Shown piece after piece: positions 3,001 to 23,068 of a DNA stretch of 34,497 nt; within the stretch, counting starts at the first letter, position 1, and every line of letters starts with the position of its first letter. The position numbers and the translations under genes were made by a program. The stretch lies in the NCBI GenBank assembly GCA_021779665.1, contig JAJYAG010000061.1, positions 1 through 34,497 on the forward strand, written 5' to 3'. The notes below the pieces were generated by a model that saw nothing but the letters and a program-made list of their open reading frames with translations, did no database searches and was not told the origin of the DNA. The DNA is from Bacteroidota bacterium (GTDB lineage: Bacteria; Bacteroidota; Bacteroidia; Bacteroidales; JAAUTT01).

Positions 3001-3882
3001 GCCATGGTCGGTTCCGATCCAGATTCGGCCTTTCTGATCCTGGGCAATACTGCGAACCAGATCGGAAGTGATAAACTTATCTGCTTCGTTTCTGAAATCT
3101 CTCCTGTCATTCCCGAAGAAGCGCCATTTGCCGTTCTTCAGATTATAGTAAAGAAGCCCTCTGTCGCCAATTCCCGGGTAAACCCAGGGATTGCCTTCTG
3201 AATCCAGAAACAGGTTGCGGGCTACCGAAGCTCCCGACGATTTCTCCTGAACATAAGTATTGCGGAAATCGACCGAATTCGTTTGCTCGTTGTAACGTTC
3301 CACCAATCCTGTGGAAAACAACACCCAAAAGGCACCTTCGGCGGATTTAATGCTTACAATATTTCCACTGGCAAGCGCATTAGGTCCATCGCCCTGTAAG
3401 TATTTTGTCAGCTTTTGCTTTCTTACATCGTACTTATAGATTGCTGTGCCCGATTCATAAAAATAAAAATTCTTCTGACCATTTATATGAACAAGCGCCG
3501 GAGTGAAATTCACTCCCAAAGGTCTCAGCACAGATGTAATATTCCGGTTAAACTTTTCAGTGCGGATGTTATAGATCTGATAATTTTGATTTCCCCTGAT
3601 CCAGAGATTTCCGTTAAAATCTTCCTGGATCTCATTTACCGCATTAAAAGCAAGGCTGGTGGTATCGTTCTTTATGGTTTTATAAACCCTGAATTCAAAT
3701 CCATCGTACCGGTTAAGGCCATAATTGGTTCCGAACCACATAAATCCGCGACTGTCCTTAAAAATTGACATCACCTGGTTATTGGATAAACCATTGGTGT
3801 TATCGAGCCGGAGGAAATTAAATGACTCAGAGAAGGCGTTAACCGAAATCAGAAGAAATATCAGCAACAATGTTTTTCTCAT
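1..3882 (-). CDS. Hybrid two-component system sensor kinase/AraC-type regulator (HTCS), C-terminus cut by window edge
   Basis: This is a one-protein signalling system of the kind that in Bacteroidota senses glycan fragments in the periplasm and switches on polysaccharide-use genes. The frame is open from the ATG at 3882 to base 1 (1294 codons). In order I see: a signal peptide (residues 1-20); a long run of beta-propeller sensor repeats with recurring LWIGT, IWVGT and GLNRYDG-like motifs (about 25-700); a Y_Y_Y domain (about 735-800); one membrane segment (about 806-828); a HisKA domain with phosphoacceptor His868 in NISHEFRTPL; a HATPase with a GTGVGL lid (about 965-1080); a receiver domain with Asp1171 in ADVMMPKMDG; and the first part of the AraC-type helix-turn-helix region (from about 1245), which runs off the window. 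It is divergent from the GH31 gene 339 bp away, the obvious candidate target. The family assignment is firm; the ligand and target are inferred. Confidence 0.95.
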   Translation of the reverse strand, partial: MRKTLLLIFLLISVNAFSESFNFLRLDNTNGLSNNQVMSIFKDSRGFMWFGTNYGLNRYDGFEFRVYKTIKNDTTSLAFNAVNEIQEDFNGNLWIRGNQNYQIYNIRTEKFNRNITSVLRPLGVNFTPALVHINGQKNFYFYESGTAIYKYDVRKQKLTKYLQGDGPNALASGNIVSIKSAEGAFWVLFSTGLVERYNEQTNSVDFRNTYVQEKSSGASVARNLFLDSEGNPWVYPGIGDRGLLYYNLKNGKWRFFGNDRRDFRNEADKFITSDLVRSIAQDQKGRIWIGTDHGGVNIYNKADESITVLRNDPLNLNSISQNSAISLFCDDTGVIWVGTYKNGISYYHPDMFKFEKSPLFFYQHPNLENKDCNTLLEDSDGNLWIGTNGSGLLKYETAAGKFRLFRNEKGNPASISSDIITSSLQDKNGTLWFGTFMGGLSRMNGNGFVRYLPEINNPNSLSNKSIYGLTEDDSHNLWIGTLGGGLDKFDAERRSFTQNNVANTPGLSANYILSVYNKAGTVYLSTSLGVDVLNTFTGQINHLFKDTAQLGKLSDPIINYTMEDSRRLVWIATDNGINIYDPGRGTIRYLTAAKGLPSDQVVSLTEDRKGNIWAGTRNGLACIQCKEDRGDYKFSVISFDENDGLVSNIFNHNAVFRSKTGKIYLGSTKGYVVIDEDNIRFNKIIPHPQFTALIIGNKEIQPGEEYRDNTILESSIAQTDKLVLHHNANNFTIRFSALSYIHPQKNKYRYMLKGFDTEWNEITNAVGQVNYSSLNHGNYELIVYAANNDNKWSKDPLVLKITVKPPLWLSWWAVLLYFLAVLGIVWLIVNYNLKKQKKEFENEQRIREAKQLHEIDEMKFRFFTNISHEFRTPLTLILSPIEKLQRNAKSDEEKNLFEIIQRNANGLLDLVNQLLDFRKLDNDKDKLHLSVGDVIGFIKDICYSFTEMANRKSIIFSFSTSISELRMEFDPEKLRKIIYNLLSNAFKFTNPNGKVELSISLVQQLNNDEKFLKVVVSDTGCGIPGKDLDRIFERFYRVDTPDNLHKSGTGVGLHIVSEYIKLHKGQIQVESTPGKGSVFTISIPAIQHLQEEIIASAEPVLPVDTETHAHEVAEEDRKSKLPLMLIVDDNEDFRKFIASLFSDHYRILLAADGEQALKLTLDKMPDLIIADVMMPKMDGYQLCREVKQDIRVSHIPIILLTAKAGDENKFRGIEAGADDYIAKPFNMEMLSLKVSRILERQKQVHDQFKHKVSINPAGVEITSMDEKFVKKAVTLVEANIENADFLVEDLCREK

Positions 3883-4221: not shown

Positions 4222-7071
4222 ATGTACAAGTACAAATTAATCGCAAGCCTTGCTTTAATTGCTTCATTGATTAGCTGCAGCAGAGAAGGCTTTCAGAAAA
4301 TATCAGACGGCATTATTGTTTCGGTTAAACAAAGTACCCCCGACCAGGTGCGGAAAATCCAACTTCAGGTAATAAACGACAATATCATTCATCTGTCGGC
4401 AATTCCAACGGACAAATTTCCTGAATTCAAGAGTCTGATTACAGCTTATGAATCCACTAAAACTGATGGGTGGAAAGCCAGTCAGAACGGTGATTCCATT
4501 TTACTTGAAACAGCAACAACCAGGGCTATCGTTTTGCAGAGCACAGGAGAAGTTACTTTTACAGATCTCAAGGGGAATATCCTGCTGCAGGAGCAGAAAG
4601 GCGGCGGCAAGACTTTCCGGCCTATTGAGGTGGAAGGCTCTCAGGGATATTCATTCCGGCAGGTATTTGAATCGCCGGCCGATGAAGCATTTTATGGTCT
4701 GGGCCAGCACCAGAGCGACGAGTTCAACTGGAAAGGGCGTAACGAAGAGCTTCTGCAATACAACACAAAAGTGTCAGTTCCGTTTATCCTCTCCAATAAG
4801 AATTATGGTATATTGTGGGACAACTATTCCCTTTCGCGCTTTGGCGATCCCCGTCCTTACAGCAACCTCAACGAAATGTTCACCATTTCCAGTAAAGATG
4901 GAAAATCGAATGGTTTTACTGCCACTTATATGGTCGATAAGGATCCTAAAAACGTTTTTGTGGAACGTCAGGAGAATACTATTGACTACGAAAATCTTCA
5001 AACCATCAAGAACTTCCCCAAAGACTTTCCCTTTAACAATGCAGCCATCAAGTGGGAAGGTGAAATTCAGCCCAAAGAAAGCGGCACTTTCAGGTTCAAC
5101 CTGTATTATGCCGGTTATACTAAGGTTTATGTAAACGACAGCCTTGTTGTTAAAGAACGGTGGCGTACCTCATGGAATCCGAATGGTTACAAATTTAATC
5201 TAAACCTGAATAAGGATGAGCGCTATAAAATCCGCCTGGAGTGGCAGCCCGATGGCGGCATATCGTATGTGGGTCTGAAAGCGTTAACTCCGGTTCCCGA
5301 AGCCGAACAGACCAAACTTTCGATGTGGTCGGAAATGGGCAAGCAGCTGGATTATTACTTTATCCGCGGCAACAGTGCCGACGAGGTAATCAGCGGTTAT
5401 AGAACCGTTACCGGAAAAGCTCCTATTATGCCCAAATGGGCCATGGGCTTCTGGCAGAGCCGCGAGCGCTATAAAACCCAGAACGAAATTCTGGATGCTT
5501 TAAAAGAATTCCGTAAACGTCAGATACCTATTGATAACATTGTGCTCGATTGGAATTACTGGCCCGAAACCCAGTGGGGCAGTCACGAATTCGACAGCAG
5601 CCGTTTCCCGAATCCTAAAGGGATGGTCGATTCCATTCATGCTTTGGATGCACGGATGATGATATCGGTGTGGCCCAAATTCTATGTAAATACAACGCAT
5701 TTTAAAGAATTTGAGAAAAACGGATGGATGTACATGCGGGCTGTAAAGGACAGCATCCGCGACTGGATTGGCCGTGGTTATGTAGGATCATTCTACGATG
5801 CCTATTCAGAAGATGCCCGCAAACTCTTCTGGCAACAGATGAAAGATCACCTTTACGGCCTTGGCATAGACGCATGGTGGATGGATGCCAGCGAACCCAA
5901 CATCCGCGACTGTACTGACATACCTTATCGTAAAGCCCTGTGCGGACCGACTGCCTTAGGTACCTCAACCGAATATTTCAATGCCTATGCTTTGATGAAT
6001 GCCGATGCCATTTACAATGGTCAGCGTGAGGCCGATCCCAATACCCGTGTGTTTTTGCTCACCCGTTCGGGCTTTGCCGGTTTACAGCGATATTCAACAG
6101 CAACATGGAGCGGCGATATTGCCACGCGCTGGGAAGACATGAAAGCCCAGATACCTGCCGGTATCAACTTCTCAATGAGCGGAATTCCTTACTGGACCAT
6201 GGATAATGGCGGTTTCTGCGTAGAAAAACGTTACGAAAAAGCACCGGAAGGATCAGCAGACCGTGACGAATGGCGCGAGCTGAATACCCGCTGGCACCAG
6301 TTCGGAACTTTTGTTCCGCTTTTCCGCACCCACGGCCAATTCCCCTATCGCGAAATCTGGAACATTGCTCCTGAAACACATCCTGCATATAAATCGATGC
6401 TTTATTATACTCAGCTGCGTTACCGGTTGATGCCTTATATCTACTCTCTTGCAGGCAAATCGTACTTTGACGATTACACCATCATGCGCGGTTTAGCAAT
6501 GGATTTTAATCATGATAAAAACGTAATGAGCATTGGCGACCAGTATATGTTTGGAGGAGCCCTGATGATTTGCCCGGTTTACGAATACAAAGCCCGTAAC
6601 CGCGAAGTGTACTTTCCTGCCGGAAGTGGCTGGTACAGTCTTTACGATGGAAAGTTCACCACAGGCGGACAAAAGCTGAACGTTTCAGCGCCATTTAACC
6701 AGATGCCTGTTTATGTTGCCGCTGGAAGTATTGTTCCGGCAGGCGCTGTTATCCAGAACACAAAGCAGGAGCAGAAAGATCTTACCATCTATGTTTATGC
6801 CGGTAAAAACGGAAGCTTCACACTATATGAAGACGAAAACGTGAATTACAACTACGAAAAAGGCAAATTCTCAAAAATTGAATTCACATACAACGATCAG
6901 AACAAAACGCTTGCGATAGCTAAACGTGTGGGCAGTTTCGATGGCATGGCCGAAAACAGAAAATTTACTGTTGTATTTATTGGTCCGACCCATCCACAGG
7001 GGATTGACTCACGTCTTCAAAACATTAACACTGTTGAATACAACGGGAATAACATTTTGATAAATCTTTAA
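4222..7071 (+). CDS. GH31 family glycoside hydrolase with PA14 insert, probable alpha-xylosidase lipoprotein
   Basis: The 949-residue protein starts with a lipoprotein signal ending in the lipobox LISC (Cys20), so it should be anchored in the periplasm or on the cell surface. A GH31 N-terminal beta-sandwich (about 35-210) is followed by a PA14 module (about 225-365, with SGTFRFNLYYAGYTKVYVND), the catalytic TIM barrel and C-terminal beta domains. The predicted nucleophile is Asp555 in WWMDASEPN and the acid/base is Asp632 in TWSGDI. The PA14 insert and the MDASEPN form are as in the Bacteroides alpha-xylosidases that take xylose off xyloglucan oligosaccharides, so that activity is likely; alpha-glucosidase activity is the alternative. 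The gene stands alone and ends in a terminator at 7126-7155. Divergence from the HTCS suggests regulation by it. No SusC/SusD pair is present in the window. Confidence 0.93.
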   Translation: MYKYKLIASLALIASLISCSREGFQKISDGIIVSVKQSTPDQVRKIQLQVINDNIIHLSAIPTDKFPEFKSLITAYESTKTDGWKASQNGDSILLETATTRAIVLQSTGEVTFTDLKGNILLQEQKGGGKTFRPIEVEGSQGYSFRQVFESPADEAFYGLGQHQSDEFNWKGRNEELLQYNTKVSVPFILSNKNYGILWDNYSLSRFGDPRPYSNLNEMFTISSKDGKSNGFTATYMVDKDPKNVFVERQENTIDYENLQTIKNFPKDFPFNNAAIKWEGEIQPKESGTFRFNLYYAGYTKVYVNDSLVVKERWRTSWNPNGYKFNLNLNKDERYKIRLEWQPDGGISYVGLKALTPVPEAEQTKLSMWSEMGKQLDYYFIRGNSADEVISGYRTVTGKAPIMPKWAMGFWQSRERYKTQNEILDALKEFRKRQIPIDNIVLDWNYWPETQWGSHEFDSSRFPNPKGMVDSIHALDARMMISVWPKFYVNTTHFKEFEKNGWMYMRAVKDSIRDWIGRGYVGSFYDAYSEDARKLFWQQMKDHLYGLGIDAWWMDASEPNIRDCTDIPYRKALCGPTALGTSTEYFNAYALMNADAIYNGQREADPNTRVFLLTRSGFAGLQRYSTATWSGDIATRWEDMKAQIPAGINFSMSGIPYWTMDNGGFCVEKRYEKAPEGSADRDEWRELNTRWHQFGTFVPLFRTHGQFPYREIWNIAPETHPAYKSMLYYTQLRYRLMPYIYSLAGKSYFDDYTIMRGLAMDFNHDKNVMSIGDQYMFGGALMICPVYEYKARNREVYFPAGSGWYSLYDGKFTTGGQKLNVSAPFNQMPVYVAAGSIVPAGAVIQNTKQEQKDLTIYVYAGKNGSFTLYEDENVNYNYEKGKFSKIEFTYNDQNKTLAIAKRVGSFDGMAENRKFTVVFIGPTHPQGIDSRLQNINTVEYNGNNILINL

Positions 7072-15163: not shown

Positions 15164-15565
15164 TCAGTTAAGTATTCCCGAACTCATCTCTGTTATCAAT
15201 TCCTCTACTACCAGGGGATTAGTTATGTATTTCAATACTGTATGATACTGCAGCCCGCTCATGGACTGTTCGTACCCGGCGTTATATGTCATAACTACCG
15301 GCATATGGCTAACACCTGTTCTATCATTTTGCTCTGCCAGAAAATCGTTCAATTCAATTTCAGAAATATCCGCATTTAACAGAATCAGATGAGGCATGGG
15401 CAAATATTTCAAATAGACCATTACCTCTTTTGTGCTCACAGCGTAAATTACCTCACATATATTCCCAAGGCTGGAAGATATAAAGCTTCTCACCGGCTCG
15501 TCTTTACCAACTACCATAATTAGTTTTCGGCTGCCCGATGTACACTTATTCCGTTGCTTTTTCAT
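15164..15565 (-). CDS. Stand-alone degenerate receiver domain (pseudo-receiver)
   Basis: The 133-residue protein is a single CheY-like fold: strand 1 KLIMVVGKDE with an acidic pair, strand 3 HLILLNADI, strand 4 MPVVMTYNAG with the conserved Thr, and strand 5 VLKYITNP followed by the last helix. Two of the three defining residues are changed. The phosphoacceptor position after LILL is Asn64 (codon AAT) and not Asp, and the conserved Lys of the ITKP motif is Asn116. It therefore should not be phosphorylated in the usual way. It has no output domain. It is transcribed away from the coiled-coil gene from a promoter with the TTCTAAT array, and terminates at 14958-15000. A role as an adaptor or inhibitor of the neighbouring OmpR-type kinase/regulator pair is inference. 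Confidence 0.8.
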   Translation of the reverse strand: MKKQRNKCTSGSRKLIMVVGKDEPVRSFISSSLGNICEVIYAVSTKEVMVYLKYLPMPHLILLNADISEIELNDFLAEQNDRTGVSHMPVVMTYNAGYEQSMSGLQYHTVLKYITNPLVVEELITEMSSGILN

Positions 15566-15620: not shown

Positions 15621-15678
15621 CAAATTTAACTCCAAAGTTCTCTCCCGAAATGAAATATAAATTAGAAAGGGATTAGAA
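15621..15678 (-). promoter_or_regulatory. TTCTAAT-array promoter for the pseudo-receiver gene
   Basis: Read on the minus strand: TTCTAAT (15678-15672), 4 bp, TTCTAAT (15667-15661), 4 bp, ATTTCAT (15656-15650, partial match), then a perfect -7 box TAAATTTG (15628-15621). The first heptamer starts 50 bp before the -7 box. The 11-bp repeat period suits a head-to-tail dimer of an OmpR/PhoB-family regulator on one face of the helix. Confidence 0.65.
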
Positions 15679-15690
15679 TCTTCAAAATAG

Positions 15691-15748
15691 TTCTAATTGG
15701 ATTCTAATTCACCATTAATACTCTTCTAACAAGGCATTTATTTATTTG
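15691..15748 (+). promoter_or_regulatory. TTCTAAT-array promoter for the coiled-coil membrane protein gene
   Basis: Heptamers at 11-bp steps are TTCTAAT (15691), TTCTAAT (15702), CATTAAT (15713) and TTCTAAC (15724). The -7-like box TTTATTTG (15741-15748) begins 50 bp after the start of the first heptamer and 19 bp before the ATG at 15768. A TTG 9 bp before that ATG is a poorer start. Confidence 0.65.
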
Positions 15749-15767
15749 TATTCATAAATTGGAAGAT

Positions 15768-16598
15768 ATGGAAAATTATAACCGAACAAAGCTTTTACTT
15801 ATCAGCTTATTGATAGCTACAACTCTAACAAGCGGATGGTTACTGATTAAAAATAATTCTATTAAAATTGAAGCCTTAAAAGAAAAATCAGTTTCTGCCG
15901 CAGAGAAAGATATGCTGAATAAGGAAGTGAATGAACTTGCAATGGAGAAAAGGAAAATTGCCGACGAAAACAGTCTCCGTAAAGCTAAAATTGACTCCCT
16001 AATGAGTGTTGTAAACCTTCGGAATATTGAAGTCAGAAACTTACTTGCTGCAAGCGCCGATGCTAAAATTCTGAAGAAGAAAATAAAAGAACTGGAACAG
16101 GTGAAGAATGAATTGAAAAATGAGGTAGATTACCTGAAACATAACGAATCGAAGCTGAACCTGACTAACTCGAACCTCGAAATTGAGTTAACCAGACTGA
16201 AGAAAGAAAATGAAAACCTGCAGGCCGAATTGCTGCTATCGAAAAATCTTTCAACCGACTATATCCTTGTTCGGAATTTAAAGCGGAATCAGAAAATCAC
16301 AGCATTTGCAAGCCGGACTAAAGCAATTAACGTAAGTTTTGATTTTCCATCGGTTCAGGCTAGCATGCTGGAGGTTAAAGTTGAAACTCCCGATGGACAA
16401 ACCTTTTCATCCACAGAAAAGAACCTGGTGACCATAGCACCTTCCAATACTCCGGCATTGGAAAGCACTTCAGCGATTCCTTTAAAAAGAATGGATTTAA
16501 TATTTAAGCCTGGTAAAAAACTCGTGAAAGGCATTTACAAATTCAATATTATTAAGAATAACGAAGTGGTTAACATCATATTAGTTCAATTAAAATAA
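15768..16598 (+). CDS. Membrane-anchored coiled-coil protein, function unknown
   Basis: The 276-residue protein has one N-terminal membrane segment (about 7-26, LLLISLLIATTLTSGWLLI). It is followed by about 130 residues of heptad-rich, highly charged coiled coil (about 30-165, for example KKKIKELEQVKNELKNEV) and a C-terminal beta domain (about 165-276) with FDFPSVQASMLEVKVETPDGQ and a GIYKFNIIKNNEV strand. The topology predicts a short cytoplasmic N-terminus and a long periplasmic rod ending in a globular domain. I do not recognise a family. It lies under a four-heptamer operator array and is closed off by a terminator at 16638-16673, so it is a single-gene unit beside the two-component system that probably controls it. 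Confidence 0.75.
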   Translation: MENYNRTKLLLISLLIATTLTSGWLLIKNNSIKIEALKEKSVSAAEKDMLNKEVNELAMEKRKIADENSLRKAKIDSLMSVVNLRNIEVRNLLAASADAKILKKKIKELEQVKNELKNEVDYLKHNESKLNLTNSNLEIELTRLKKENENLQAELLLSKNLSTDYILVRNLKRNQKITAFASRTKAINVSFDFPSVQASMLEVKVETPDGQTFSSTEKNLVTIAPSNTPALESTSAIPLKRMDLIFKPGKKLVKGIYKFNIIKNNEVVNIILVQLK

Positions 16599-16637
16599 AT
16601 TAAACAGCAATTATATTTTTCATTGGTTTTGGTGGTT

Positions 16638-16673
16638 CCCGGGAAGCTGACATTGTCATTTTCCCGGGTTTTT
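16638..16673 (+). terminator. Rho-independent terminator after the coiled-coil gene
   Basis: CCCGGGAA (16638-16645) pairs perfectly with TTCCCGGG (16661-16668), followed by TTTTT (16669-16673). It separates the coiled-coil gene from the response regulator, which therefore needs its own promoter; I could not find a clear TAnnTTTG box in 16674-16773. Confidence 0.85.
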
Positions 16674-16773
16674 CTAATCTTGAAACTACTGCCATTGTTA
16701 AAAAAGAAACAAGGATTAAATTAAATAATGATTTTTCTTTTGAACTGTTTAAATTAGCAGTAATCATAAATGT

Positions 16774-17469
16774 ATGGAGAATAAGAAACTATTGGTTATT
16801 GAAGACGAAAAACGTTTGGCCGAAGTTCTGAAAGCAGGATTTGAAGAACATGGCTATCTTGTTGACACGGCTTTCGACGGATATGTTGGCCGGAATATGG
16901 TTCGTAAAAACAAATACGATCTGGTTATTCTCGATATTAATCTTCCTTTGGTAAACGGATACGAGTTATGCAGGGAAATAAGACTGGATAACAAGGAAAT
17001 ACCCATTATTATGCTTACCGCCATGGGTGAGCCCGAAAATAAAATAGCAGGTTTTGATGTCGGCACCGACGATTATGTTATTAAACCATTTGATTTCCAG
17101 GAGCTGCTTGCCCGGGTAAAAGTATTCATCAGACGAAGCACCGCTCAGGAAGTAAAAGAAGAAAGCGTTATCACAATTGATGATCTGGTTATAAATCTCA
17201 CGAAAAAGACTGTTCAGCGCGGCGATACCCTAATTGATCTTACGGCTAAAGAATTTGCCTTGCTGGAGTACCTTGCAAAAAACAAGGGAATTGTTGTTTC
17301 AAGAGTCGATATTGCAGAAAAAATCTGGGATATGAACTTTGATACAGGAACAAATTACATAGATGTTTACATCAATTATCTTCGGAAAAAAATCGACAAG
17401 GATTTTACAAACAAGCTTATACACACACGTATTGGAATGGGTTATGTATTAAAAGATCCCAATGATTAA
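16774..17469 (+). CDS. OmpR/PhoB-family response regulator
   Basis: The 231-residue protein has a canonical receiver (about 4-117), with acidic residues in VIEDEKR, phosphoacceptor Asp54 in LVILDINLPLVNGYE, Thr in IIMLTA and Lys in VIKPFDFQELLARV. A winged-helix DNA-binding domain follows (about 135-228), with LTAKEFALLEYLAKN and the C-terminal TRIGMGYVLK hairpin. Its stop overlaps the start of the kinase gene by 8 bp (17462-17469), so the two form one operon. Regulators of this class bind head-to-tail direct repeats with about 11-bp spacing. That is the geometry of the TTCTAAT arrays at 15650-15730 and 18939-18978, so this protein is the best candidate to bind them. Confidence 0.95.
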   Translation: MENKKLLVIEDEKRLAEVLKAGFEEHGYLVDTAFDGYVGRNMVRKNKYDLVILDINLPLVNGYELCREIRLDNKEIPIIMLTAMGEPENKIAGFDVGTDDYVIKPFDFQELLARVKVFIRRSTAQEVKEESVITIDDLVINLTKKTVQRGDTLIDLTAKEFALLEYLAKNKGIVVSRVDIAEKIWDMNFDTGTNYIDVYINYLRKKIDKDFTNKLIHTRIGMGYVLKDPND

Positions 17470-18847
17470 GATGAATATCCGGATAAAACTTACAATTCAA
17501 TTCACGTTAATTATAGGGGTAATTCTTTTAATTTTTACTCTGGCAATATTTTATTTCTCATCGTCGTACAGGCTGAACGATTATAACGACCGACTTAAAA
17601 ACAGAGCATATACAACCGCACGTTTGCTCCTGAATGTAAAAGAAGTTGATGAAACTTTACTGCGAATAATTGATAAAAATACGCTGGCCTTAAACCAGGA
17701 GAGCATTTTTATTTTTGACGAAAATGGCAAACTGGTTTACAATACAGCCGAGTCGGGCTTAAGGGATCCCAAAATATTGGAAAGAGTTAAAGAAGAGAAG
17801 GTTTATGAATTTAAACAAGGTGAAAAAGATGCAGTGGGTTTAGTATATGAATACGATAAAAAACAGTATATCATCATAGCCTCGGCTCACGACATTTATG
17901 GTATTGCAAAAATAAGAAACCTGAAGATTATCTTAATTGTTGGCTATATCCTGAGTCTGTTGATTTCCATCCTTGCAGGCTCTGTTTTTTCAGGCAAAGC
18001 TCTGGCCCCTATTTTGTCAGTTGTTAACCAGGTTAAAAAAATAACTATCACAAACCTAAACCTCCGGGTGGACGAGGGTAATAAAAAGGACGAAATAGCT
18101 CAGCTTGCCATTACTTTCAACCAAATGCTTCAACGTTTGGAAGAAGCGTTTATACTCCAAAGGGAATTTTTGTCAAATGCCGCTCATGAGCTTAGAACCC
18201 CATTTTCGGTAATGCTTGTGGAAATTGATTACAATCTGATGCAGCAGCGGCCCATCGAGCATTATCAGGAAACTCTCCGAAACCTCTCCAAAGAGTTAAA
18301 AAAGCTCAGCAAGTTAACCAACGGACTTTTAGACCTGGCAAAAATTAATTTCAACGAGAAGAATTTTGAATACAGAGCCTTGAGGATTGATGAGTTATTG
18401 GTTGAAACCTGCAACGAAGTTCAGAAAAACAATATCGATTTCAAGCCCATTATTGATTTCAGTTCATTTCCCGACGAGGAGGAATATCTATACATAAAAG
18501 GCAATGAACAACTTTTAAAAACTGCTTTCAAAAACCTGATTGAAAATGCCTGTAAGTTTTCTTCGAACAAAGAAGTAACCATTAATTTGCTCATCGGAAA
18601 AAACAGTGTCGAAATCCAATTCAGTGATCAGGGTATTGGCATATCGGCTGAAGATATATCTAATATATTTGAGCCCTTTTACCGCGGGGCAAATACTCAC
18701 TTTATCGCAGGTTATGGACTTGGCTTGGCTTTAACACAAAAAATTATACATCTCCACAATGGAAATATTACGGTAAAATCTGAGCTTGGAAAAGGATCTG
18801 TTTTTTCTGTTTCATTTCCGGGCATGGTCATGAATCAAAAAAGCTAA
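17462..18847 (+). CDS. Sensor histidine kinase partner of the OmpR-type regulator
   Basis: The 461-residue protein has two membrane segments (about 13-32 and 155-176) around a periplasmic sensor region of about 120 residues (with IFIFDENGKLVYNTAESG, a PAS/Cache-like strand pair). A HAMP linker follows, then a HisKA domain with His242 in NAAHELRTPF and a HATPase domain with NLIENACKFS, DQGIGI and GYGLGLAL. This is a class I membrane kinase of the CusS/EnvZ type. The start is the ATG at 17462, which overlaps the regulator stop; another in-frame ATG is at 17471. The signal is not evident from the sequence. The stop codon forms part of the hairpin at 18845-18878. Confidence 0.93.
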   Translation: MIKMNIRIKLTIQFTLIIGVILLIFTLAIFYFSSSYRLNDYNDRLKNRAYTTARLLLNVKEVDETLLRIIDKNTLALNQESIFIFDENGKLVYNTAESGLRDPKILERVKEEKVYEFKQGEKDAVGLVYEYDKKQYIIIASAHDIYGIAKIRNLKIILIVGYILSLLISILAGSVFSGKALAPILSVVNQVKKITITNLNLRVDEGNKKDEIAQLAITFNQMLQRLEEAFILQREFLSNAAHELRTPFSVMLVEIDYNLMQQRPIEHYQETLRNLSKELKKLSKLTNGLLDLAKINFNEKNFEYRALRIDELLVETCNEVQKNNIDFKPIIDFSSFPDEEEYLYIKGNEQLLKTAFKNLIENACKFSSNKEVTINLLIGKNSVEIQFSDQGIGISAEDISNIFEPFYRGANTHFIAGYGLGLALTQKIIHLHNGNITVKSELGKGSVFSVSFPGMVMNQKS

Positions 18848-18878
18848 CCCCCGACAAACTAGCCTATGCCGGGGGTTA
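18837..18878 (-). terminator. Minus-strand intrinsic terminator overlapping the kinase stop codon
   Basis: On the minus strand TAACCCCCG (18878-18870) pairs with CGGGGGTTA (18853-18845) around a 16-nt loop, and TTTTTT follows at 18842-18837. On the plus strand no T run follows, so it acts mainly on leftward transcription, either from the esterase operon or from the candidate small RNA. Confidence 0.8.
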
Positions 18879-18914
18879 AATGCAGGGTGAGGTTTTATCA
18901 CTTGCATATGCTAC
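18837..18914 (-). ncRNA. Candidate small RNA under the TTCTAAT array
   Basis: No gene fits 18848-18981. A four-heptamer array with a -7-like box (18978-18921, minus strand) would start transcription near 18914 and meet the terminator with its T run at 18842-18837. This gives an RNA of about 78 nt with a short 5' region, an open C-rich stretch CCTCACCCTGCATT and a terminator hairpin. It would be antisense to the last bases of the kinase gene. The boundaries are predicted and not observed. The alternative is that this is only the 3' untranslated region of the esterase operon. Confidence 0.4.
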
Positions 18915-18925
18915 AAGTGATAAAA
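18893..18925. repeat. Perfect 12-bp inverted repeat overlapping the predicted -7 box
   Basis: TTTTATCACTTG (18893-18904) and CAAGTGATAAAA (18914-18925) are perfect inverted arms with a 9-bp centre. There is no T run next to it. It overlaps the -7 box at 18921-18928, so it could be a repressor operator, or an RNA hairpin in readthrough transcripts from the esterase operon. Confidence 0.6.
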
Positions 18926-18978
18926 GTAGAGGGATCAAATTAGAAATAAATTAAAGCAAGATTAGAATTACATTATAA
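18921..18978 (-). promoter_or_regulatory. Third TTCTAAT-array promoter, pointing into a geneless stretch
   Basis: Read on the minus strand at 11-bp steps: TTATAAT (18978), TTCTAAT (18967), CTTTAAT (18956), TTCTAAT (18945-18939). TACTTTTA (18928-18921) then begins 50 bp after the first heptamer start. The order, with a degenerate third heptamer ending TAAT, matches the array at 15691-15730. It lies just past the stop of the esterase gene. Confidence 0.6.
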
Positions 18979-18981
18979 GTC

Positions 18982-20160
18982 TTATTTCAAATTAAGGTAC
19001 TTCAAAACAGCATCATCTCCCTTCAAAGCTCTGGCGGGTATAGGATTCTCATTATTAAACACCCTAAGTGAATCAGCAGGTAAAATGGTGACAAAGCTTT
19101 CGTCGAATGAGTTTTTATAGGGAATTTTACCGGCATCAAGATCTAGATAGTGATCGAAAAAATTATACACCGGAGCTCTTTTAGTTGCTTCATAACCATG
19201 ACGCTCGCCGGGAAAATGGGCATTATCAACCTTGCTCTCTGCATCATACAGGGAATAAACCTTTTGAATATAAGGGAACTCTATCCTGGGTGTATTCTTT
19301 GTCCAGTCGCCCCCGTCGGAAACCAACAGCATAGGTCGTGGTGCGCAAAGTGCTGCAATTTCAACATTGCTTGTCTGGTGCGATTTACTTCTGTGAATGG
19401 GCATACCGCTTTCGCATGTACATCCGCCAAAAAAATATGCTGAAACCATTACCACCGGCACCGATACTTTGATCCGACTGTCGAGAGCTGCAATAAGAAT
19501 TGTCTGGGTACCTCCTCCTGATTCGCCTGTTATTCCTATCTTATCAGAATCAACATCTGGCCTTGTAAGAAGATAATCAAGCACTCTCTTACTGTTAAAG
19601 GTCTGAAGCAACAAAGCTATAGGTATTTTATGCGAAACCTGTTTTGAGTCTCCATACCCCACCATATCGTAGGCAAATACGATTGCTCCCATTTTGGCAA
19701 AGCATGCTGCCCGTATTTGGACTTCATCCGACATTCTTCTGTCGGGCCAATGTCCATGTGGTGTTAAAATAGCAGGGCATTTCTTATCGGTTTTGAGAGG
19801 CCGGTACAAATTTCCGGTGATGTAAAAACCGGGAAAACTTTCAATGGCGATGTTTTCGACAATATAACCATCCATCGTCCTTGTATTTCTGATGATGGGC
19901 TGAAAACTATTACTTACCTGCGGCATCTGATCGAGTTTCATTCCTTTAATCAAACCCTGCCGGATTATATCCCCGCGCTTTTCCCAATCGGCCTTCGTTT
20001 TCCATTCGGCCGACCATTTCTTTAACATCTGGTTTCCCTGATCTTCGGTCCAGTAATTACCCTGGCACAACATGTTATCCTGGGCGTTTATTCCGGTAAC
20101 AGCAAGAAAAAAAATATGCAAAAGCAAAATGGTCTTACATCTGATTTTCATAGCCAACAA
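18982..20160 (-). CDS. Exported alpha/beta hydrolase, acetyl-xylan-esterase-like
   Basis: The 392-residue protein has a signal peptide (about 1-25, ending GINAQ). The hydrolase fold carries the oxyanion region LTPHGHWPDRR, the nucleophile elbow GESGGG (Ser214) and the C-terminal histidine in GERHGY (His321), with SDGGDW supplying a candidate acid. This resembles the secreted esterase/prolyl-oligopeptidase-like proteins found with sugar-degradation genes in Bacteroidota and Planctomycetes, often annotated as acetylxylan esterases. The substrate is unproven. The insert GGCTCESGMPIHRSKSHQ is Cys- and His-rich. It is the last gene of a probable operon, 27 bp after the Gfo/Idh gene. An alternative ATG lies three codons in (20151). 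Confidence 0.85.
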   Translation of the reverse strand: MLAMKIRCKTILLLHIFFLAVTGINAQDNMLCQGNYWTEDQGNQMLKKWSAEWKTKADWEKRGDIIRQGLIKGMKLDQMPQVSNSFQPIIRNTRTMDGYIVENIAIESFPGFYITGNLYRPLKTDKKCPAILTPHGHWPDRRMSDEVQIRAACFAKMGAIVFAYDMVGYGDSKQVSHKIPIALLLQTFNSKRVLDYLLTRPDVDSDKIGITGESGGGTQTILIAALDSRIKVSVPVVMVSAYFFGGCTCESGMPIHRSKSHQTSNVEIAALCAPRPMLLVSDGGDWTKNTPRIEFPYIQKVYSLYDAESKVDNAHFPGERHGYEATKRAPVYNFFDHYLDLDAGKIPYKNSFDESFVTILPADSLRVFNNENPIPARALKGDDAVLKYLNLK

Positions 20161-21640: not shown

Positions 21641-23068
21641 TCAGGCATTATCGGGCAAATTTATCAAAACTTTGGTGCCTTTTCCAATACTACTTTCAAT
21701 AGCAATGGTACCTCCGTTAAGTTCAATAAATTCCTTACAAACCAGGAGACCTATTCCGGTTCCTGTTTCATTGCTGGTTCCGGGTACCGATCTTACATTT
21801 TCGACTGAAAAAAGGGAAGATAAAACTGTTGCCGGCATACCCGTGCCCTGATCTTCAATACAAATCTCCGTACCATCTGTCAATTTTCGTGAACTGATTA
21901 AGATCGTTCCTCCTTCGTACGAATACTTAACAGCATTATTATATAAATTACTAATAACCACGCCCAAAGTATATCTGTCGGCAACCACCTGTGCCACAGT
22001 CGAAATATCGATAACTGTTTTTAACCTTTTAGCTTCAGCTGATGATGAATAAGGCTCAATTGACATGCTTACAATGGCTCGGATAAATATAACCTCCCTG
22101 TTTAAGAGTAATTTATTTTGTTGTGAATTTGCCCACTGTAAAAGGTTTTCGAGGAGGCGTGATGCACTGTGAGACGATTTTTCCAGATTGTGAAGGAGAA
22201 TATTTCTACGGTTCTCATCAAGCTTAATCCTATCGCTGTTCAGCAGTTCAATAACTCCGGTAATATGAGCAAAAGGGCTGCGTAGATCGTGTGCTATTAT
22301 TTGAAACAGCCGGTCTTTGGTTTGAATACTGTGCTGAAGTTCTGCATTTTTTGATTCAATAACCTTGTTATATTTTTTTGCAAGACGGTGATAGAAAAAC
22401 AAAAAGATGGTACCAAAAAATGCAATCAATAACTGAATTGACAGGAATGAACGTACCTGAAAAATCAATGCTTTTTCAAAAACTCCTGCCGGAAAAGTCA
22501 CACTTATTCCCCCTCTTATATCACCTGTTTTATATCCCTGATGTGCGTGACATTTTAAACAACTGGCCTGAGTTGCCAGTGGTGCCATATAACGATAAAT
22601 TTTCCCATCATCACTTTTGGTTAAAATAATTTGTTCTTTGGTTTTTCTATCCTCGAACAACTTTAACATCTCCGTTTCCCAGGCATCAGGCTTGTTGGCA
22701 GGACGGATCGGTTTTAAACTTGTAATATGGAAGCGTGTATCTTCTTTGGATTTTGTAATTTCCGAGATTTGCCTGGTCATATAGGCCGGGTTTATCTTTG
22801 TCAGCTTCATTCCATTTATGGTAACAATATCCCGCAAACTATCCACAAGATAAACATTGGGCTGAGATTTTTCGGTAACCGGCACATAAACACCACCATG
22901 TTCCGAGTTCCAGATACGCGACTGAACAATGAGTTCGAAAAAAGCCCTAGCCTTACTTAACGCCATTTCCCGATTTTGTATCAGAATTGCCCTATACTCA
23001 GCTATAAACAGTACACCCACCACAAAAAGCCATCCGAGCATCAACCAAAGTAAGTACTTAACCTTCAT
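21641..23068 (-). CDS. Heme-binding (CxxCH, DUF3365-type) sensor histidine kinase
   Basis: The 475-residue membrane kinase has a first membrane segment (about 4-24), a periplasmic DUF3365/Tll0287-like region and the c-type heme motif C170-LK-C173-H174 (in QASCLKCHAHQG). The second segment (about 208-226) is followed by a HisKA domain with His260 in IIAHDLRSPFAH and a HATPase with NLYNNAVKYS, EDQGTGMP and GTGIGLLVC. A single covalent heme outside the cell suits sensing of redox state or of a gas such as oxygen or nitric oxide. No response regulator is adjacent. It is first in a leftward unit with the Gfo/Idh and esterase genes, and it diverges from the hydrogenase-like sensor. Confidence 0.9.
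   Translation of the reverse strand: MKVKYLLWLMLGWLFVVGVLFIAEYRAILIQNREMALSKARAFFELIVQSRIWNSEHGGVYVPVTEKSQPNVYLVDSLRDIVTINGMKLTKINPAYMTRQISEITKSKEDTRFHITSLKPIRPANKPDAWETEMLKLFEDRKTKEQIILTKSDDGKIYRYMAPLATQASCLKCHAHQGYKTGDIRGGISVTFPAGVFEKALIFQVRSFLSIQLLIAFFGTIFLFFYHRLAKKYNKVIESKNAELQHSIQTKDRLFQIIAHDLRSPFAHITGVIELLNSDRIKLDENRRNILLHNLEKSSHSASRLLENLLQWANSQQNKLLLNREVIFIRAIVSMSIEPYSSSAEAKRLKTVIDISTVAQVVADRYTLGVVISNLYNNAVKYSYEGGTILISSRKLTDGTEICIEDQGTGMPATVLSSLFSVENVRSVPGTSNETGTGIGLLVCKEFIELNGGTIAIESSIGKGTKVLINLPDNA

Follow-up and report, generated by a model that had tools for sequence, protein, structure and literature searches.

A two-component system of a Bacteroidota bacterium (Bacteroidales, JAAUTT01), made of an OmpR/PhoB-type response regulator and a sensor histidine kinase encoded on contig JAJYAG010000061.1 of the assembly GCA_021779665.1, is flanked by three putative promoters, P1, P2 and P3, at which the heptamer TTCTAAT and its variants recur in steps of 11 bp ahead of a TAnnTTTG-like box. 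According to our analysis of the whole contig (34,497 nt, hereafter the window), this locus probably represents a regulator-driven local circuit with three outputs, one of which would be a small RNA (sRNA); binding, activation, transcription, feedback and the function of the RNA are what we infer here from the sequence. The box starts exactly 50 bp from the start of the first heptamer in P1, P2 and P3, and this distance, claimed for all three in an earlier prediction on the same DNA (the original prediction), proved exact when the sequence was read directly (Table 1). The 11-bp steps claimed along with it have exact coordinates at each promoter, although P2 has just two good units, and all three promoters do lie around the one system, although P3 precedes no protein gene on its strand. 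As a lone TTCTAAT occurs in the window at chance level (7 observed against 8.27 expected), the signal sits in the phasing. This frequency would also suit a chance phasing of AT-rich heptamers, but the genome-wide and cross-genome counts given below contradict it, and we consider such an origin of the arrays practically negligible.

Table 1. Positions of the putative regulatory elements and genes of the locus in the window
Feature	Position	Strand	Basis or detail
P1 operator, four heptamers at 11 bp	15691..15730	+	sequence read directly, genome scans
P1 heptamers	15691 TTCTAAT, 15702 TTCTAAT, 15713 CATTAAT, 15724 TTCTAAC	+	7, 7, 4, 6 of 7
P1 -7-type box TTTATTTG	15741-15748	+	predicted start ~15753, placed via PMC9723704
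P2 operator, two TTCTAAT at 11 bp	15661..15678	-	third unit weak
P2 heptamers	15678 TTCTAAT, 15667 TTCTAAT, 15656 ATTTCAT, 15645 GGAGAGA	-	7, 7, 4, 1 of 7
P2 -7-type box TAAATTTG	15628-15621	-	50 bp past first heptamer
P3 operator, four heptamers at 11 bp	18939..18978	-	sequence read directly, genome scans
P3 heptamers	18978 TTATAAT, 18967 TTCTAAT, 18956 CTTTAAT, 18945 TTCTAAT	-	6, 7, 5, 7 of 7
P3 -7-type box TACTTTTA	18928-18921	-	5/6 matches
OmpR/PhoB-type response regulator, 231 aa	16774..17469	+	Pfam PF00072 1.4e-28, PF00486 5.1e-24
Sensor histidine kinase, 461 aa	17462..18847	+	HAMP, HisKA, HATPase_c
Membrane-anchored coiled-coil protein, predicted P1 product, 276 aa from this ATG	15768..16598	+	open reading frame, homologue alignment, AlphaFold2
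REC133, 133-aa weakly receiver-like protein, predicted P2 product	15164..15565	-	open reading frame
Predicted ~80-nt small RNA from P3, ends in GC-rich hairpin and U6	18837..18916	-	fold, terminator, closest relative
Likely intrinsic terminator CCCGGGAA...TTCCCGGGTTTTT between coiled-coil and regulator genes	16636..16673	+	read directly; not listed by a simple scan

The arrays are rare in the host genome. Whole-genome scans covered an assembly of 6,936,451 bases in 305 contigs, whose completeness of 96.61% limits what can be said of the completeness of the regulon, as does the fact that degenerate sites could escape the scans. Two units with the box (TTCTAATN4TTCTAATN32TAnnTTTG) were found with no more than 2 mismatches at three sites of the 6.94-Mb genome, all at this locus, where P2 has 0 mismatches (the sole such match in the genome), P1 has 1 and P3 has 2; four further sites at exactly 3 mismatches are background, because the reversed-pattern control gives 6 at up to 3. 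When the box is left out, TTCTAATN4TTCTAAT is present four times in the genome, twice at this locus, and once in the reversed control, and with up to 3 mismatches allowed, only 15691+ (P1) and 18978- (P3) match the four-unit pattern, with 0 in the control. The latter pattern was modelled on the window arrays, so these two matches are no independent evidence, while the lack of any others is. At the stringency used, the operator is thus, on sequence grounds, exclusive to this locus in its genome, and an occurrence at hundreds of sites, which would have spoken against the original prediction, was not found. The dedicated regulon proposed there holds in as far as all three sites with up to 2 mismatches stand beside the system; in other genomes, the sites are sometimes elsewhere.

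The conservation of the arrays was followed in 88 loci of the regulator subfamily, the window included: 73 from a sample of the order (out of 89 regulator matches, with E-values from 3.8e-150 to 2.3e-59, 16 of the weaker matches being left out), all 14 new regulator matches at E of 1e-80 or lower from samples of the class and phylum, and one locus, L112, added from a profile search with a four-row regulator alignment. Among the matches listed by this search, which served as a control only, most are generic regulators from other organisms, and the best named one, from a Cytophagales metagenome-assembled genome, is 49% identical. Of 393 genomes sampled from the order, 72 carry the subfamily at E of 1e-55 or lower, and at 1e-80 or lower it is also found outside the order, within the same class, to which every one of the phylum-sample matches belonged. 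The region scored ran from 2.6 kb before the regulator gene to 4 kb after it; an array was called where four units TT(C/T)TAAT reached 23 or more of 28 matches, and a TAnnTTTG-like box at 5 or more of 6 matches.

With these definitions, 47 of the 88 loci contain 58 arrays at 11-bp spacing, and the numbers of arrays at spacings of 8, 9, 10, 12, 13, 14, 15 and 16 bp are 0, 1, 0, 0, 1, 2, 2 and 0; an earlier set of 73 loci had given 11-bp arrays in 36 of them and 0-2 for other spacings. The box stands at +50 from the first heptamer in 26 of the 58 arrays, at +61 in 8 and at +62 in another 8 (other offsets occur in no more than 3 each), and the additional 11-12 bp amounts to a single helical turn. 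When array and box were scanned for together, 60 sites at 45 loci were found, compared with 3-9 at other spacings and 3-11 at wrong offsets, and a part of the 60 is weak and probably background. An array lies within 1.5 kb of the regulator in 30 of 73 subfamily loci as compared with 0 of 19 other OmpR-type regulators from the same order and with the same flank; control loci of other organisms, with flanks of up to 5 kb, have an array (score 23) in 2 of 79 cases at 11 bp and also in 2 of 79 at 15 bp. A strict pattern of four units and box with up to 3 mismatches was then searched in 50 genomes with the subfamily, picked from the 72 carriers and including the window's own genome, and in 50 genomes without it (30 whose best match is no better than ~2e-40, 19 absent from the 72 matching genomes, and one, G757, known only as non-matching at 1e-80). 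It is present in 18 of the former vs 1 of the latter, and the reversed control gave 0 of 100. These counts support an operator code of the subfamily with exact spacing and exact box offset, as predicted from sequence. A loss of spacing in relatives, the second outcome that could be computed against the original prediction, was not seen either, since arrays recur beside the relatives' regulators and beside none of the 19 others; we judge its interpretation, in which binding is presumed, supported.

The distant members of this set of sites say something of the likely regulon in other genomes. Of the 21 strict sites, which come from 18 genomes, 12 lie within 1.5 kb of a regulator or kinase match, 2 have a coiled-coil match alone in that range, and 7 have none of the three. 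By eye, several distant sites precede genes for CusC/TolC-type outer-membrane proteins, and so does L232, the lone site in the genomes without the subfamily; CusC/TolC-like genes, again by eye, follow arrays at L214, L216, L221, L222, L224 and L227, which are subfamily members or belong to their genomes. At L088 and L106 the array precedes the regulator gene itself.

The regulator of the window has a receiver domain and a C-terminal winged-helix Trans_reg_C domain, the composition of the OmpR/PhoB family. Its best NCBIfam model is cztR_silR_copR (TIGR01387), at 242.7 bits vs a cutoff of 279.2, and the best model of the kinase is that of the cognate kinase, TIGR01386 (201.6 vs 292.55); as the CztR/SilR/CopR model is nearest yet below its cutoff, we do not file the regulator there. 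Nor does it reach the cutoffs for PhoB of the phosphate regulon (182.4 of 296.2) or RespRegPhoBBctds (175.4 of 270), and no efflux gene was found among the window genes scanned beside the system. Given the likely terminator ahead of the regulator gene, the regulator and kinase genes are probably transcribed from a promoter of their own that has no array. At 21641-23068 (-), beside a GFO/IDH/MocA oxidoreductase gene, the window encodes a further histidine kinase, whose sensor domain is Tll0287-like.

It could be argued that the arrays are bound by a different regulator than that encoded at 16774, for example by its paralogue on contig C257 of the same genome (G000:C257, 52% identical), given that there are at least 70 OmpR-type matches in the genome and that the subfamily seems to have the heptamer in common. 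However, all three genome sites with up to 2 mismatches surround the regulator at 16774, the array scans list no site in the paralogue's contig (L044), which has just 3,253 bases, and the closest relative, described below, shows an equal proximity of sites and system. We regard an assignment to another regulator as improbable.

Two of the three predicted outputs are proteins. The P1 product starts with a membrane helix that continues into a long coiled coil, and its AlphaFold2 model, built from six sequences (mean predicted local distance difference test score, pLDDT, 78.0; predicted template modelling score, pTM, 0.35), shows this part as one helix (4-159) followed by a beta domain at the C-terminus. 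Foldseek with this model gave nothing at E of 0.001 or lower, and many of the weak matches listed are immunoglobulin-like folds. Homologues preceded by an array are found at L042, L052, L057 and L059 (best tblastn piece at E ~1e-7 or better) and at L226, and identity over the six-sequence alignment is 20-27%; short proteins with a transmembrane (TM) segment and a coil, alike in plan only, are downstream of arrays at L041, L046 and L202. At L060 and L065 the arrays precede ~31-aa single-TM peptides starting with MKK, possible feedback peptides of the kinases. REC133, the P2 product, matches the receiver part of the NCBIfam PhoB model over residues 14-127 at E 2.4e-4, far under the cutoff; in Pfam it has no family at E of 0.001 or lower and no receiver family even at E of 5 or lower, and hhalign against the regulator alignment was not significant. 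The position of the phosphoacceptor Asp reads Asn (LILLN), as judged by eye rather than by a tool alignment, and the single-sequence fold is poor (pLDDT 41.6) and unusable.

In the closest relative found, genome G381 with locus L052, the regulator shares 69% and the kinase 59% identity with its counterpart in the window. Two sites with up to 2 mismatches are present in this genome, both flanking the orthologous system, together with 9 more at exactly 3 (control 1). Its P1-like site precedes a 112-aa membrane-anchored coiled-coil protein (oriented 3326-3664), which aligns with residues 9-82 and 242-279 of its counterpart in the window and lacks the middle. The P3-like site of L052 lies past the kinase gene on the opposite strand; its box and first two units are free of mismatches, and its units 3 and 4 are poor. 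L052 keeps the position and orientation of P3, its operator, the 50-bp offset, a terminator and the length (79 nt, z-score -3.95).

Downstream of P3 on the minus strand there is no protein gene, and P3 is directed towards the kinase gene, whose 3' end it faces. P3 as the promoter of a protein gene was rejected, the next gene in its direction being the kinase gene on the opposite strand, and P3 as a chance match was rejected on the genome-wide counts and the closest relative. About 80 nt past the expected start, a GC-rich hairpin is followed by TTTTTT on the minus strand, while the plus strand has no T-run there, and the end of the predicted RNA covers, on the opposite strand, the final 11 nt of the kinase gene. 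Segment 18922-18836 folds at -35.2 kcal/mol (z-score -5.59, reached by 0 of 200 shuffles); the 80-nt version, 18917-18838, is weaker (z-score -3.24, 1 of 200) because the first hairpin loses most of its 5' arm. The terminator hairpin was not listed by the simple scan, which takes loops of 3-8 nt, the loop in the fold having 10 nt. A promoter-like site, a short stretch in which no open reading frame ends ahead of the terminator, and an intrinsic terminator, the architecture of an sRNA gene, are thus all present, and a short, terminated and regulated RNA is predicted as the likeliest product of P3. Rfam gave 0 matches in the window at the gathering score, and at relaxed thresholds the window and L052 segments also stayed below it; the weak matches of the P3 RNA look like terminator matches. 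When the P3 region was compared as DNA with the family's 5 genomes, the window itself was the sole match.

Some further observations concern this part of the locus. The box and the start of P3 are overlapped by an inverted repeat, TTTTATCACTTGTA...TGCAAGTGATAAAA, formed by 18912-18925 and 18893-18906 of the minus strand. By eye, L052 lacks this repeat, which may form a hairpin at the 5' end or serve a second regulator as its operator. At L043 (array 6295+, terminator near 6511) a terminator follows the array with no ATG-started open reading frame of 25 aa or more in between, and L073, with its array 50 bp before the regulator on the minus strand, has a terminated stretch that likewise lacks such a frame; both stretches run divergent from the regulator.

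What P3 makes may be understood in other ways. It may be a real operator that gives no functional RNA, with the terminator serving the hydrolase gene at 18982-20160 (-) or insulating the convergent genes, and the transcript of P3 would then be a by-product or would block read-through from the kinase gene by transcriptional interference. The stop of the hydrolase lies on the same strand ~110-145 nt upstream of the terminator, which fits such a role, as does the divergence of the RNA sequence in L052; yet in L052 the array, the 50-bp offset and the terminator are kept although there a different open reading frame is the nearest upstream on the minus strand (counting those of 100 aa or more) and ends ~290 bp before the array, and the hydrolase has a match in 0 of 87 other loci. 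We consider this explanation rather unlikely. That P3 encodes a very small protein instead of an RNA is suggested by a 31-aa frame beginning 13 nt past the box, and peptides of about this length do follow the arrays at L060 and L065; but the frame crosses the terminator stem and the U-run, and L052, by eye, has no ATG between box and terminator, which makes a protein product very unlikely.

Several results weigh against the proposed circuit and its sRNA. With reversed sequence at 11 bp, arrays at score 23 were still found in 6 of 73 loci, more than at other spacings, supposedly because a reversed array retains its period. At the thresholds used, 41 of the 88 subfamily loci have no array and 32 of the 50 subfamily-carrying genomes lack the strict pattern, and the 7 of 21 strict sites without a regulator, kinase or coiled-coil neighbour imply that the regulon is not always local. 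REC133 has no match in the other 87 subfamily loci, L052 included, so P2 is not shared. A convergent P3-like site is found in the window and L052 only, i.e. in 2 of 79 loci with the kinase downstream (0 for the control at 14-bp spacing), and the sequence of the P3 RNA is not conserved between the two. Finally, pairing of the P3 linker with the leaders of 21 window genes gave nothing convincing. The strongest pairing, with the rec133 leader, had -18.8 kcal/mol with a 26-nt linker and -15.7 with a 21-nt one; 18% of 1000 dinucleotide shuffles of that leader reach the latter value, as do 3.1% of 120-base stretches drawn at random from the window, and the 21 comparisons weaken it further. Taking all this in mind, the fullest version, an autonomous three-output circuit in which the regulator activates its own convergent sRNA facing the 3' end of the kinase messenger RNA (mRNA) and so tunes the system, is put forward tentatively, as a possibility in which our confidence is limited.

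Under the proposed regulator-driven circuit, the kinase would phosphorylate the response regulator, which would bind as head-to-tail dimers on TTCTAAT/TTTTAAT half-sites spaced by 11 bp, occupying four of them at P1 and P3 and two to three at P2. Only 10 bp separate the end of the array from the -7 box, and the bound regulator would therefore stand in for the -33 element and recruit the housekeeping sigma factor, as PhoB does at the pho promoters of E. coli. In a Flavobacterium, TAnnTTTG occupies positions -12 to -5 relative to the start (PMC9723704); on this basis the arrays would reach from about -62 to -23, across the position of a -33 element. From this geometry, a PhoB-like activation through contact with the sigma factor is the likeliest mode. 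The outputs would be the coiled-coil membrane protein from P1, the weakly receiver-like protein from P2 and the terminated sRNA of ~80 nt from P3, and, since all three adjoin the system, it would be logical to suggest a self-contained local circuit in this genome. The two proteins may feed back on the kinase or the regulator, and the P3 RNA may act post-transcriptionally, in trans or on the facing 3' end of the kinase mRNA.

The closest analogy known to us in operator design is E. coli PhoB, whose sites are 11-bp repeats placed 10 bp upstream of -10 (PMC1906773); both systems have a winged-helix regulator of the OmpR/PhoB family and direct repeats of 11 bp that end 10 bp before the -10 or -7 element. 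Unlike in E. coli, the heptamer here is TTCTAAT/TTTTAAT, four units are common, the promoter is of TAnnTTTG type, and the regulator is by score not the phosphate regulator. With CusR, CztR, SilR and CopR (TIGR01387) our system shares the best models of both proteins, and arrays of several relatives precede CusC/TolC-like outer-membrane efflux genes by eye, but both proteins are under the curated cutoffs and the genes scanned beside the system in the window include no efflux gene; E. coli CusR binds a palindrome. As for the RNA, Bacteroides has the ~100-nt intergenic sRNA MasB, activated by the regulator Cur according to PMC10994844, and the two cases are alike in that an intergenic sRNA of similar size would be under a transcription factor in Bacteroidota. 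The likeness is one of description, and the RNA gene here adjoins the gene of its presumed regulator. Cur itself is not known as a two-component regulator of this kind. Enterobacterial two-component systems have small feedback proteins and sRNAs, for instance PhoQP with MgrB and MgrR, and the membrane protein and sRNA outputs predicted here, with their presumed feedback, would be alike in logic. We class the system, from its sequence features, as a presumable variant of the PhoB type of operator, which differs in its heptamer, its arrays of four units, a regulon that is local in this genome and an output that is probably an RNA.

In the open-licence literature we found no description of a TTCTAAT/TTTTAAT operator of response regulators, and our literature searches found no link of a two-component system to an sRNA in Bacteroidota. 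What we predict is a small RNA controlled by a two-component system and encoded beside its own kinase gene; if true, it would be a two-component-controlled sRNA in a phylum where these searches turned up no such link. The operator code, for its part, may allow candidate regulons to be read directly from genomes for a widespread branch of two-component systems of which we found no description.

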